Shown in pieces: positions 18,002 to 22,643 of a DNA stretch of 64,000 nucleotides (positions within the stretch are counted from its first letter, which is position 1; every line of letters starts with the position of its first letter). The position numbers were made by a program, and so were the translations under genes. The notes below the pieces were generated by a model. The model was not told where the DNA came from. It did not search any database and saw nothing but the letters and a program-made list of their open reading frames with translations. The DNA is from an uncultured Bdellovibrionales bacterium. GTDB taxonomy: Bacteria; Bdellovibrionota; Bdellovibrionia; Bdellovibrionales; Bdellovibrionaceae. The DNA lies in NCBI GenBank assembly GCA_903926205.1, contig CAIYID010000031.1, positions 124,001 to 188,000 of the forward strand, given 5' to 3'.

Positions 18002-18706
18002 CTAAAAATAGTAGGTGGCTCCAAAAGCTCCCGTGAGTACATTCTGAAAATTAGAAAGACTTAAAAGCATCATGACTTCGGCATAAAGACTGGTGCCCAC
18101 ATAGGGTCCATTCAGCATGTTGTACTGAAGACCAACAGAGGGTGTTAAGATATTAACGGCGAACTTTCCTGTTTGTTTATCACTATCGCTCAAAAATTTT
18201 TGGCCCAAAAAACTTGGTGTCGTATTCCCAATTGAGCCTCCGGTTTCAGAATTATTATACCAGCGGGCAAAAGCGGCCCCAGCATAAGGAGCCAGAATTC
18301 TTCCACCGAAAACGTGACGCCAACCCATTTCAAAGGTCGAATATTGAGGCCCGCCACCAAAACCAATCAACGCAGAATCATCGAGTGAAAAATTAAGCTC
18401 TGCGCTCACACCAAGAAGTCCAAGTTTTCCAGCAAGCTCTACGCCAACACCAACACGTCGGTCAGCTCTCATGGAATAAGTGGAATCGTATTCTGAAGTG
18501 AAAACTTCGGCAATGGCGCGTTTTTCGCGCAAAAAAGAGCCCCTCTTTGTCTCGATTTTTTGTTCAACTTTTCTTCCAAGTCGAACAGCGCTGTCTTTTG
18601 CCTCAACCGCATCTTCCTTAAAGTCTTCAATCAACACTGCCTTTTGAGCCAAGGCATTCAGTTCAAACAAACATCCAAAAATAAATATTAATAGACACAA
18701 ACGCAT
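18002..18706 (-). CDS. Predicted outer-membrane beta-barrel protein, unknown function
   Basis: The 234-residue product has a signal peptide (cleavage near ALA at residue 20) and a charged Glu/Lys/Arg stretch (about 25-65) that may be helical. It is followed by amphipathic beta strands rich in Gly and aromatic residues, ending in ATYYF. The terminal Phe and strand pattern fit an OmpA/OmpW-type barrel. It lies 13 bases after mlaD on the same strand, so it could be the last gene of the lipid-transport operon and an outer-membrane partner. That link is inferred from position only. Confidence 0.7.
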   Translation of the reverse strand: MRLCLLIFIFGCLFELNALAQKAVLIEDFKEDAVEAKDSAVRLGRKVEQKIETKRGSFLREKRAIAEVFTSEYDSTYSMRADRRVGVGVELAGKLGLLGVSAELNFSLDDSALIGFGGGPQYSTFEMGWRHVFGGRILAPYAGAAFARWYNNSETGGSIGNTTPSFLGQKFLSDSDKQTGKFAVNILTPSVGLQYNMLNGPYVGTSLYAEVMMLLSLSNFQNVLTGAFGATYYF

Positions 18707-18719
18707 TTATCGACTCCCC

Positions 18720-19499
18720 TCAAAAGGAAATTTTAGCTTTCACACCCTCTTCTTGAAAAAACTTTTTAATCGCGGGTCCGTCCAAGGGCTCTAAACGAAA
18801 CAAAAGTTTCTGTACCAAAGCGTAGGTGTCTTCTGCCTTTTTACTTCGAAGATTTCCTGTTAAATAAGCCACATCATCACTGATCTTAATGGCATTATCA
18901 AGAAGACGTGCCATATCTTTATTCTTCGAGGTTTTATCAAGCAAGATAAGTGTTTTATTAAAATTTGTGGTTAATTTATCTAACTGCGCTATTACGTTTG
19001 AAATTGAGCCTTCATTTTTATTGACTAGCTCGATAATTTTTCCAGCCAATCCATAGGACTGAGAAATCAACTGATCGATTCGCGGCGGATCTTCACCTCT
19101 TACGCTATCGCCAGAACTAAATTCTTCAGCATTAGTAGAGCCAGGAGATATTTCTAAAAATTTCTCTCCAATAACACCCGCTAAATTGATAAAAAACTTT
19201 GAGTCTTTTCGAATGCTGGCCCAAGCCTTCTTTTCCACATCAATTTCCACACGCAATTTTACTTCTTCATCATTTTTGGTCTTAAATCCGGGCTCAAACT
19301 CAATCCTACGGACTTTACCTACTTTGATACCCATGACTCGAACTGGAGAACCCTCTTCCAATCCGCCGGCGTAGTTATAACGAACATTCAATGATTTATT
19401 GTTAGAAAACGGGGTGATAATTCCCATTACGTAAGCAAAACCCACCACCAAAATCAGTGAGCCGAGAAAAAGCAATCCAACCTTGGCTTCTGCCTTCAT
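18720..19499 (-). CDS. mlaD: MCE-family lipid transport protein (MlaD-like)
   Basis: MlaD-type proteins form periplasmic MCE rings on an ABC permease and shuttle phospholipids across the envelope. The 259-residue product has an N-terminal membrane anchor (about residues 6-25), an MCE domain (about 37-115, with VRYNYAGGLEEGSPVRVMGIKVG) and a helical C-terminal half (120-240). The C-terminal part is longer than in E. coli MlaD (183 residues), which may extend the channel. It is the fifth gene of the ATPase-ATPase-permease-permease-MCE order. A 129-base gap with three TTTCAG repeats separates it from the second permease. Confidence 0.92.
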   Translation of the reverse strand: MKAEAKVGLLFLGSLILVVGFAYVMGIITPFSNNKSLNVRYNYAGGLEEGSPVRVMGIKVGKVRRIEFEPGFKTKNDEEVKLRVEIDVEKKAWASIRKDSKFFINLAGVIGEKFLEISPGSTNAEEFSSGDSVRGEDPPRIDQLISQSYGLAGKIIELVNKNEGSISNVIAQLDKLTTNFNKTLILLDKTSKNKDMARLLDNAIKISDDVAYLTGNLRSKKAEDTYALVQKLLFRLEPLDGPAIKKFFQEEGVKAKISF

Positions 19500-19554
19500 T
19501 TCAAATCCTTTTATTTCTTAAAATTATTTCTTTTTTTAATTTCATTCTATTCTT

Positions 19555-19572
19555 TTTCAGTTTCAGTTTCAG
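19555..19572. repeat. Triple TTTCAG hexamer repeat upstream of mlaD
   Basis: Three perfect tandem TTTCAG units (CTGAAA on the coding strand) lie in the 129-base gap between the second permease and mlaD. The surrounding sequence is A/T-rich. No terminator-like stem is evident. Confidence 0.7.
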
Positions 19573-19628
19573 TAATCTTTTTGTTAACTCTTACAAAAAA
19601 ATATTCAATCTTTCTGCTTTTACTTATT

Positions 19629-20366
19629 CTAGAAATGAGTGAATAGATATGACAACACAAAGTCGATAATAATGATAACAATTGATGAAGTAACGACACT
19701 GTTTGTTGTTGCCAAGCCAACTCCTTCTGCTCCGGATTTGCATCGAAAGCCGAAATGACAACTCACCAAAGGAATTACGACTCCAAAAGAGGCCCCTTTT
19801 ATCACAGAAAAAATGAGATCCTTGAAATGCACAAATCTTCTCATTCCGCTAATAAACATGGCTGGCGAAAAGCCTAAATACATATCACTCACCAGCATCG
19901 CACTATAAATACAGACCAAATCGGCAACAATAGTGAGGATCATTCCACCAAAAATACAGGCAAAAAGTCTTGGTAAAACTAAATATTGTACAGGATCAAT
20001 TCCCAGCATTTTTAATGCATCAATCTGCTCTGTTGTTTGCATAAGACCAACCTCCGCAGCTATTCCTGCGCCAACTCTTGACGTGAGTAAAAGGGCCGTC
20101 ACCACAGCGCCGAGCTCTCGAAGAATCAGCATTGCGGCAAATCCAGGCACCATGGAATCATTCTGAACGACGAGTCTCATATGAAAAGAACTTTCCAAGA
20201 TCGTCACCATAGCCGCAAAACACACACAAAAAACGATGATAATTAAGCTTTGATTGGCCACAAAATAGAGCTGTTGAAAAGATTCTTTAATGCGCACAGG
20301 AGGCCTGAAGGCAGAAAAAATTGCATGAGTCGTCATCTCGGTGAAAGAAACAAAGTGCTCAAACAT
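19629..20366 (-). CDS. mlaE: MlaE-family ABC permease, second paralogue
   Basis: The 245-residue membrane protein has the MlaE signature LILRELGAVVTALLLTSRVG followed by EVGLMQTTEQIDALKMLGID, and about five membrane segments. It starts at the base where the first permease ends (1-base overlap). It diverges from the first permease in loops (for example a basic SCHFGFRCKSGAEG near residue 205), so the transmembrane core is probably an E1-E2 heterodimer matching the two unequal ATPases. That pairing is inference. In E. coli Mla the permease is a homodimer. Confidence 0.9.
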   Translation of the reverse strand: MFEHFVSFTEMTTHAIFSAFRPPVRIKESFQQLYFVANQSLIIIVFCVCFAAMVTILESSFHMRLVVQNDSMVPGFAAMLILRELGAVVTALLLTSRVGAGIAAEVGLMQTTEQIDALKMLGIDPVQYLVLPRLFACIFGGMILTIVADLVCIYSAMLVSDMYLGFSPAMFISGMRRFVHFKDLIFSVIKGASFGVVIPLVSCHFGFRCKSGAEGVGLATTNSVVTSSIVIIIIDFVLSYLFTHF

Positions 20367-21130
20367 TATGTCCCCAAGACCGCTCTTAAAGTTATATCCG
20401 CCAAAAGACTCGTGACCCAGTCAGCAATAACTATAGTCACCATTGTTCCAACCGCTGTTTTTACTACCGCTAGACCGACTCCTTTAGCGCCACCAGTCGT
20501 CGTATAACCACGATAGGTGCAAATCACTGCTAATACCACAGCAAATATAAAGCATTTAAATAAACCAGTTAATATTGAAGGTAAACTAACGATGGTTGGA
20601 ATATGGCGAAGATATTCCTCAAAGCTTACTCCGGAAAAAACTTCTCCTAATAAAATGCCGCCAAAAATCGACAGCAACAGCCCTAGTCCTAACAAGAAAA
20701 AAGAGGAAATGACAATCGCTATAAAACGCGGAAGCACTAATTCTTGAATGGGATCTGCTCCAAGGCAGCGGATTGCATCAATTTGTTCCGTCACTCGCAT
20801 TGTGCCTAGTTCTGCCGAAGTGAACGCCCCAACTTTTCCAGCCAGCATAAAGGCAATGAGCAAAGGACCTACTTCGCGAATGGTGGTGCTTGTGGCGAGA
20901 CCCCCCAAGTATCCTAATGCTCCAAAATCTTTCATTTGCATCGTGAATTGGATCGTCATAATAGCGCCAACAAAAAAACCGGCCATGCCCGTGGTGAGCG
21001 CGCTTTGCATGGTCACTTTCCAGATTTGCTCAAACATCAGCTGACTAGAAATTGATTTTCTTTTCCAGACTCCTAATATTCGAAAAAAGAAAATAACTAC
21101 TTTTCCTGCGTCAGAAATGACTCCCATCAT
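20366..21130 (-). CDS. mlaE: MlaE-family ABC permease, first paralogue
   Basis: The 254-residue permease carries the family signature REVGPLLIAFMLAGKVGAF then AELGTMRVTEQIDAIRCLGAD. It has an N-terminal amphipathic helix and five to six membrane segments, and its C-terminus contains TYRGYTTTGGAKGVGLAVV, as in MlaE. The start overlaps the end of the second ATPase gene by four bases. With four ABC components and one MCE protein in a row, it should be one half of the membrane core of a phospholipid transporter. No STAS protein (MlaB) or periplasmic MlaC is encoded nearby. Confidence 0.92.
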   Translation of the reverse strand: MMGVISDAGKVVIFFFRILGVWKRKSISSQLMFEQIWKVTMQSALTTGMAGFFVGAIMTIQFTMQMKDFGALGYLGGLATSTTIREVGPLLIAFMLAGKVGAFTSAELGTMRVTEQIDAIRCLGADPIQELVLPRFIAIVISSFFLLGLGLLLSIFGGILLGEVFSGVSFEEYLRHIPTIVSLPSILTGLFKCFIFAVVLAVICTYRGYTTTGGAKGVGLAVVKTAVGTMVTIVIADWVTSLLADITLRAVLGT

Positions 21131-21870
21131 TGGCGCGCCTCTTTCTCAAGAACCTCAGAAAGAAAGTCTTTGACCAATGAAACTTGTGATTTTTTTAATT
21201 CTTCCGGTGTTCCAATTTCAATAATACTTCCTTGATCCATAACTATTATTCGATCCGCAATATCCAAAGCACAACGCATGTCATGACTAACAACAATCGA
21301 AGTCGTTTTTAAATTTCTGGAAAGCTCTAAGATAAGTTGATTAATCGCGCTTGTGGTGACGGGGTCAAGACCTGTTGTTGGCTCATCAAAAAGCAAAACT
21401 TTTGGCTCTAACGCAATTGTGCGAGCCAAACTCACGCGTTTTTGCATTCCATATGAAAGCTGAGACGGAAATTTATTTTCAATATTTTTCAAATGAACTA
21501 AACCTAGTGCTTTGGTCACTTTTTTCTGAATTTCTTGTTCACTGTCTTTTGTATGACGACGAATTCCAAATGCAATATTTTCAAACACCGTTAATGAGTC
21601 AAAAAGTGCTGGTTGCTGAAAGACCAATCCACATTTTCTTCGGATCGGTAAATATTGCTCCTCTGAAAAACTGGAGACCTCTTCACCTTCAATCCAAATT
21701 TGACCCGCATCGGGTTTCATTAATCCCATCAGATTCTTCAGTAAAACCGATTTTCCCGTACCAGACGTTCCAAGAATAAAGAGAATTTCTCCTTTTTGAA
21801 CCGACAAATTCAAGCCCTTCAAAACGATTCGGTCACCGAATTTTTTAACTAAGCCTTTGAACTGAATCAC
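21127..21870 (-). CDS. mlaF: MlaF-family ABC ATPase, catalytically canonical half
   Basis: The 247-residue ATPase powers the MCE transporter. Walker A is GTSGTGKS (residues 34-41), Walker B ends in FDEP with the catalytic Glu163, and the switch histidine is His196 (VVSHD). Its signature motif, however, reads LSYGM (138-142) rather than LSGG-. It overlaps the first ATPase gene by four bases and the first permease by four. If it dimerises with the first ATPase, the active ATP site would use this protein's Walker motifs and the partner's normal ISGGM. Its own unusual signature would face the partner's defective Walker B. Confidence 0.94.
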   Translation of the reverse strand: MIQFKGLVKKFGDRIVLKGLNLSVQKGEILFILGTSGTGKSVLLKNLMGLMKPDAGQIWIEGEEVSSFSEEQYLPIRRKCGLVFQQPALFDSLTVFENIAFGIRRHTKDSEQEIQKKVTKALGLVHLKNIENKFPSQLSYGMQKRVSLARTIALEPKVLLFDEPTTGLDPVTTSAINQLILELSRNLKTTSIVVSHDMRCALDIADRIIVMDQGSIIEIGTPEELKKSQVSLVKDFLSEVLEKEARQ

Positions 21871-22643
21871 TCGCCCCCCGCCATCGAAGTTAGAGGGCCA
21901 TTGATTTCACCACTAATAAATTGGCGAATGCGCGGATCTTTGTGCTGCTTGGTCTGCTCCACAGTTCCAGCATCAATCACCTGTTGATCAACCACCATCC
22001 AAATTCGATCGGCGAGTTGATAAGCCCGATTCATGTCATTCGTGACTGCAATCAGAGTTGATGTGTTTTTACTCTTTAAATGAAGAATCAAATCGATAAT
22101 TTTCCGGCTGGTGATTGGATCTAAGCCTGCCGTCGGGTCGTCGTAAAAAATAAGTTCCGGATGAAGAGCTAAAGCTCTAGCAATACCTAGCCTTTTTTGC
22201 ATCCCACCACTGATCTCGTCTGGGTATAAGTTTTTTGCATGACCGATACCTACTGCCGCTAAAAACTCTTCGGAAATTTTCTGAATTTCTTTCTCTGACA
22301 ACTCTGTCACTTCGCGCAATGGAAAGGCGATATTCTCTCCGCAGGTCAAAGAGTCGAACAAGGCATTCTTTTGGAATAACATTCCAATCTTATTGATAAG
22401 CTTTTGTCGTCTTGCGCCAGAAATTTCAAAAAGATTTTCGCCTCGAACCAGGACTTTTCCCTTGGTTGGTGGCACCAAACCGGCCATCAATTTCAAAAGA
22501 ATACTCTTCCCTTGGCCGCTCGGGCCAATGATTGCCACAGACTCGCCCTCGGTCACATTAAGGCTTACATTATGAAGAACGGTATTCCCCTCGAAGGAGA
22601 TACTGACTTCGCTCAAATTTATGGCAGCTAACGCCACGCCCAA
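21867..22643 (-). CDS. mlaF: MlaF-family ABC ATPase with altered catalytic residues
   Basis: The first gene of the MCE operon encodes a 258-residue ATPase with a normal Walker A (GPSGQGKS, residues 40-47) and a normal signature ISGGM (144-148). The residue after Walker B Asp168 is Asp169 instead of the catalytic Glu, and the switch position is Asn202 (VTNDM) instead of His. Both substitutions are the kind found in degenerate halves of heterodimeric ABC transporters. The gene is divergent from mdh across an 82-base gap that must hold both promoters. I infer an asymmetric transporter with one active and one binding-only ATP site. Confidence 0.93.
   Translation of the reverse strand: MGVALAAINLSEVSISFEGNTVLHNVSLNVTEGESVAIIGPSGQGKSILLKLMAGLVPPTKGKVLVRGENLFEISGARRQKLINKIGMLFQKNALFDSLTCGENIAFPLREVTELSEKEIQKISEEFLAAVGIGHAKNLYPDEISGGMQKRLGIARALALHPELIFYDDPTAGLDPITSRKIIDLILHLKSKNTSTLIAVTNDMNRAYQLADRIWMVVDQQVIDAGTVEQTKQHKDPRIRQFISGEINGPLTSMAGGE

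Follow-up and report, generated by a model that had tools for sequence, protein, structure and literature searches.

Can a transporter of the MCE/Mla type be driven by two unlike ATPases, with one of their two shared ATP sites degenerate and the other working? The question is raised by a locus in a 64,000-nucleotide window (the whole stretch of DNA that was analysed; positions 124,001 to 188,000 of contig CAIYID010000031.1, assembly GCA_903926205.1) from an uncultured Bdellovibrionales bacterium. Here two MlaF-type ATPases, called F1 and F2 below, and two MlaE-type permeases, E1 and E2, precede a single gene for an MCE-domain protein. An earlier note on this DNA had likened the ATPase pair to the asymmetric heterodimeric ABC exporters, and the comparison appears to hold: the changed signature of F2 and the lost Walker B and switch residues of F1 would fall within one site, an asymmetry that is not due to chance because it is kept in more than 100 relatives. 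We consider it very probable, judging from sequence, that the locus encodes an MCE/Mla-type transporter in which an obligate F1–F2 heterodimer acts on an E1–E2 heterodimer, one ATP site of the F1–F2 pair being degenerate and the other functional. The pairing of F1 with F2 is argued for by the complementarity of their changes, by their co-occurrence and by one fusion of F2 to E1, and a role in lipid transport is suggested by family membership.

Catalytic residues of the two ATPases

Each ATP site of an ABC dimer draws its Walker A and B, Q-loop and switch elements from one subunit and its signature from the partner (PMC7756269). F1 contains Lys46, Gln91 and a normal ISGGM signature (Gly146, codon 22206-22208), with Asp169 (22137-22139) in place of the catalytic glutamate and Asn202 (22038-22040) in place of the switch histidine. 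F2 contains Lys40, Gln85, Glu163 (21382-21384) and His196 (21283-21285), and its signature reads LSYGM, with Tyr140 (21451-21453) replacing the first glycine. The residues reported in the earlier note for both proteins were exact on re-reading. Because each site joins the Walker and switch elements of one subunit to the signature of the other, Asp169 and Asn202 of F1 would share a site with Tyr140 of F2, as that note had proposed for a head-to-tail dimer, and the canonical composite site would consist of F2 Glu163 and His196 together with F1 Gly146. A homodimer of either F1 or F2 has no fully canonical site, and pairing F1 with F2 gives one.

Among transporters with a degenerate site, the signature is changed in every human case, followed by substitution of the Walker B glutamate with aspartate, often accompanied by a change in the H-loop (PMC7756269). 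The set of changes found in F1 and F2 (signature, Glu-to-Asp and H-loop) matches this pattern.

Conservation and co-occurrence in relatives

Conservation was read first in a near set of the 60 nearest genomes, which were picked with the E2 permease as bait, independently of the ATPase motifs, and in which the adjoining ATPases were examined. All 39 F1 proteins carried Walker B Asp and an SGG signature, with Asn at the switch in 38 and His in one. F2 showed Glu at Walker B in 44 of 44 and His at every readable switch site, and none had SGG, its place being taken by SYG or SFG. In the near-set genomes, 14 MlaF paralogues encoded in operons with a single ATPase gene were all canonical.

The wide set used the E2 bait across the class and the other classes of the phylum, and motifs were taken from one alignment (106 F1 and 107 F2 proteins); two ATPases from L052, an ABC operon of the oligopeptide type, were excluded by their motifs DEPTTALDV and FSGGQRQR. 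E2 of the cluster was present in 94 of the 144 genomes of the class, and the cluster also occurs in other classes of the phylum. Walker B of F1 was Asp in 80, Glu in 25 and Ser in one, a tally biased towards Asp by 11 outside-class loci (L136-L146) that had been picked by a DD motif. The F1 switch was Asn in 85, Ser in 15, His in three, Thr in two and Gly in one, and the signature was SGG in all 106. F2 retained Walker B Glu in 107 of 107 and switch His in all 106 that could be read (one was unreadable), with the first glycine of its signature replaced by Tyr (86), Phe (17) or His (2), never kept as Gly, and unreadable in two. No F1 across the phylum had both Walker B Glu and switch His (0 of 106), and the three that keep His all lack Glu, having Asp (L088 and L142) or Ser (L189) instead. 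The earlier note had named normal catalytic residues in both ATPases of relatives as evidence against its proposal; such relatives were sought throughout the phylum, and no symmetric pair was found among the 106 F1 and 107 F2 proteins. All residue losses in these proteins map to one composite site and in every case leave the other intact. Since 21 of 21 MlaF controls (20 homodimer-type paralogues of the same phylum and E. coli MlaF) were canonical, the asymmetry does not reflect a lineage-wide drift of ATPase motifs.

The individual changes differ in age. Outside the class, the F1 proteins selected through E2 (L177-L211, n = 32) have Walker B Glu in 25, Asp in six and Ser in one, and His at the switch in one. 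The constant and older asymmetry is the combination of the F1 switch residue (Asn, Ser, Thr or Gly) with the F2 signature (SYG, SFG or SHG). The Walker B Glu-to-Asp substitution, found in all class members read, is a younger change with repeated origins elsewhere, because 25 of the 32 keep Glu; eight Walker B changes were counted on the F1 tree. The co-occurrence of E-to-D, H-to-N and LSYGM that the earlier note had put forward for checking thus holds in the 60 nearest genomes, and its E-to-D component is present in six of the 32 F1 proteins selected through E2 outside the class. Some relatives have independently acquired changes like those of CFTR. The signature carries His in L203 and L208, the counterpart of the His in the signature of CFTR. 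Walker B carries Ser in L189, as it does in CFTR (PMC7756269).

The occurrence of F1 also follows that of E2. Of the 94 class genomes with E2, 86 have a DNA-level match to the F1 motif YDDPTAGLDP, compared with 1 of the 50 that lack E2 (counted by hand), and four of the eight genomes that have E2 and lack the motif carry LNDD, LCDD or FFDD. F1 lies no more than 60 nucleotides from F2 in 56 of 73 loci; elsewhere it is farther away with foreign genes between, or the two are on separate contigs, and the F1 residue pattern is kept even where the distance is 0.5-3.6 kb or F1 is on another contig. One genome (G018) has F1-F2-E1 at one place and E2-MCE at another. In a further genome (G119, L168:3639-5348), F2 and E1 are fused through a linker into one open reading frame of 570 amino acids, which is evidence of what would be an intimate F2–E1 pairing. 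In trees, F1, F2, E1 and E2 each form a group of their own, and the four groups are conserved together, with support of 100 for E1, 100 for E2 and 96 for F2; the branch of F1 alone had a modest support of 67, which rose to 99 when solo F1 paralogues were included.

These solo F1-like ATPases (L151:5748-6503, L152:5312-6130, L153:6371-7126 and L155:5633-6424) form one clade and have Walker B Asp, switch His and SGG; the 12-13 kb examined at these loci contain no MlaE permease. A large open reading frame resembling a P-type ATPase follows one of them. Their partner is possibly F2 or another MlaE. Separately, genus g3 (G003, G022, G027, G031, G034 and G079-G087) has no E2 orthologue and the whole cluster is seemingly absent from it; several of the small genomes (1.2-2 Mb) in the order also lack it.

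A proposed one-sided motor and its alternatives

From the gene content, residues, conservation and co-occurrence described above, we infer how the ATPases would assemble, which nucleotides their sites would hold, at what rates these would be hydrolysed, and what substrate would be moved in which direction. The motor would be a head-to-tail F1–F2 heterodimer beneath the E1–E2 permease heterodimer, with the MCE ring above and the small outer-membrane barrel as a probable partner. Site 1, formed by Walker A, Walker B and the switch of F1 with the SYG of F2, would bind ATP but hydrolyse it at most slowly. Site 2, formed by Walker A, Walker B and the switch of F2 with the SGG of F1, is canonical in its residues and would do the work. 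ATP in site 1 would keep F1 and F2 together, and one ATP per cycle would be hydrolysed in site 2. The outcome would be a fixed left–right order of events, E1 versus E2, and of the hand-over of lipid to the MCE channel. It is quite possible, and we extend the proposal this far only tentatively, that in MCE transporters throughout the phylum a permanently ATP-loaded degenerate site and a single active site impose a fixed, asymmetric one-ATP cycle on E1–E2, that lipids pass between the inner membrane and the barrel by way of one MCE ring without MlaA, MlaB or MlaC, and that a motor like that of CFTR and TAP arose independently in a lipid-bridge system.

Several findings weigh against this proposal. 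Sites with a Glu-to-Asp substitution are still capable of slow hydrolysis, and most F1 proteins outside the class keep the Walker B glutamate, such that site 1 of those relatives may hydrolyse ATP. F1 and F2 are not simple sister duplicates in the tree: F2 is closer than F1 to one canonical ATPase group, and a simple tandem duplication is therefore not shown. Only 50 of 73 loci have a recognisable barrel gene close to the MCE gene.

Retention of slow hydrolysis by Walker B Asp in known transporters (PMC7756269) and of Glu by most F1 in the other classes would also suit a heterodimer in which both sites hydrolyse, with Asp, Asn and Tyr tolerated and the asymmetry mainly setting which ATPase docks on which permease; specific docking is itself suggested by the F2–E1 fusion. 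We regard this as unlikely, because docking specificity should alter surface residues and not catalytic motifs, and the losses, Glu or His in every F1 and SGG in every F2, point to selection acting on catalysis. Quite unlikely, too, is an arrangement in which F1 and F2 each pair with themselves and the two homodimers serve E1–E2 alternately, or serve different permeases, with F1 acting as a weak or regulatory ATPase. The occurrence of F1 far from F2 or on another contig would fit such homodimers, as would the solo F1-like paralogues with no permeases nearby. However, F1–F1 would be crippled on both of its Walker B/switch sides and F2–F2 would have both signatures altered; nothing in this arrangement would explain why conservation is complementary in every pair, and F1 is almost missing where E2 is missing. 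That F1 is a redundant copy in neutral decay and heading to loss is scarcely credible: its sequence changes somewhat faster than that of F2 (mean identity 55% versus 64% in the same 28 loci), but a decaying copy would be expected to lose motifs and to be missing from many clusters, whereas F1 has kept its Walker A, Q-loop, SGG, Walker B Asp and D-loop intact across the phylum.

Operon parts and known systems

An operon carrying the putative F1–F2 heterodimer was recovered with the gene content that the earlier note had described, two ATPases and two permeases ahead of one MCE gene, as five genes matching Pfam ABC_tran (twice), MlaE (twice) and MlaD. With the barrel gene, six open reading frames run in the order F1, F2, E1, E2, MCE, barrel over positions 18002-22643 of the minus strand (Table 1). 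They overlap by 1-4 nucleotides at the F1/F2, F2/E1 and E1/E2 junctions, and 129 nucleotides separate E2 from the MCE gene. The start codon of F1 as called is TTG, and a start inside the open reading frame is possible. Both ATPases match NCBIfam MlaF, each scoring under its equivalog cut-off; MlaF is the best NCBIfam match of F1, whose best match in the PDB is E. coli MlaF. Divergent genes upstream of F1 (by sequence, malate dehydrogenase and succinyl-CoA synthetase subunits) seem unrelated.

Table 1. Parts of the predicted transporter operon, in gene order; coordinates are window positions, and the cut-off for PF02405 (MlaE) is 22.5 bits.
Part	Description	Coordinates	Strand	Basis
F1	MlaF-type ATPase, degenerate Walker B/switch, intact signature	21867-22643	minus	Pfam ABC_tran
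F2	MlaF-type ATPase, altered signature LSYGM	21127-21870	minus	Pfam ABC_tran
E1	MlaE-type permease	20366-21130	minus	PF02405, 207 bits; own clade in tree
E2	MlaE-type permease	19629-20366	minus	PF02405, 215 bits; own clade in tree
MCE	Single-MCE-domain protein, MlaD-like, N-terminal membrane helix, helical C-terminal region	18720-19499	minus	PF02470, residues 35-120, 64 bits
Barrel gene	Predicted 8-strand outer-membrane beta-barrel protein	18002-18706	minus	Structure model and Foldseek

The structure model of the MCE protein has a helix at residues 3-28, MCE strands and C-terminal helices, with low confidence after residue 140. The next gene begins 13 nucleotides after the MCE stop and, in agreement with the outer-membrane barrel predicted earlier at this distance, its product was modelled as an eight-stranded barrel whose strands mostly have a predicted local distance difference test score (pLDDT) over 90. 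Foldseek matched the model best to the N-terminal barrel of OprF (4rlc), then to Ail and OmpA. The open reading frame had no Pfam or NCBIfam match; its C-terminal aromatic YYF is conserved, and its mean identity is 33% as against 55-64% for the other parts. In L172 and L175 the barrel gene still adjoins the MCE gene, although the pair has moved away from E2.

The absence of MlaB and MlaC from the operon, also remarked on earlier, extends to the whole genome: neither the operon nor the 99.96%-complete genome gave a match to MlaA, an MlaB-type STAS protein or MlaC, using models that detect the E. coli proteins. The genome encodes four MCE proteins and five MlaE permeases. It contains a further, divergent MCE operon (G000:C73:4500-13320, L048), whose permease and ATPase are 28% and 26% identical to those of the window.

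In the literature searched (open-licence papers, including those on Bdellovibrio with Mla/MCE), we found no description of ATPase asymmetry or of paired unequal MlaF ATPases in an MCE system. The coupling of ATP to lipid movement in MCE transporters, and the direction of that movement, are disputed. The ATP sites of a homodimer cannot be mutated separately, which makes it difficult to test site order and stoichiometry; in the present system each site could be mutated alone, because the ATPases of the two sites lie in two genes. Two different ATPase subunits are found on bacterial importers such as ECF (EcfA-EcfA') and OppD-OppF, which differ from F1–F2 in their membrane subunits and substrates and are not MCE systems.

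The locus shares MlaE permeases, an MlaF-type ATPase and an MCE-domain protein with E. coli MlaFEDB, a type VIII ABC transporter. The E. coli system has one homodimeric ATPase, with both ATP sites canonical, and one permease gene, together with MlaB, MlaC and MlaA, whereas here there are two of each and MlaA, MlaB and MlaC are absent from the genome. The C-terminal extension of E. coli MlaF is wrapped around its partner subunit and makes contact with MlaB (PMC7367683); F1 keeps the GPL element that opens this extension and ends soon after, and F2 has no such tail. Single homodimeric genes, against which the earlier note had set this operon, are the state in E. coli and not the only known one, as mycobacterial Mce1 (YrbE1A-YrbE1B-MceG) has two permeases (PMC9882608). 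A two-permease MCE transporter with a homodimeric ATPase is therefore already known, and Mce1 resembles the present system in its two different permeases and in an MCE ring with a helical extension; it differs in that its ATPase is a MceG homodimer and its MCE ring is heteromeric (PMC9882608), where we find unlike ATPases and one MCE gene. Already known, too, is a minimal Mla system with a barrel and without MlaA or MlaC, the MlaEFD of Veillonella parvula, in which MCE function is likewise tied to an outer-membrane beta-barrel (PMC10665443). There, the barrel has 10 strands and is the C-terminal domain of MlaD, and MlaE and MlaF are single genes (PMC10665443), whereas here the barrel is a separate gene with eight predicted strands; the paper's main text makes no mention of Bdellovibrionota.

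TM287/288, BmrCD, TAP, MRP1 and CFTR resemble F1–F2 in having a Glu-to-Asp (or Ser) change, often with an H-loop change, in one half and a signature change in the other, both within one composite site, with the other site intact (PMC7756269). These proteins are exporters or a channel with another membrane fold, whereas the membrane subunits here belong to the MlaE family, not to the type I exporter domain of TM287/288 and TAP, and stand with an MCE protein, limiting the likeness to the ATPase domain. A one-sided motor on this second, unrelated membrane fold would show that degenerate sites have been adopted more than once and are no quirk of exporters.

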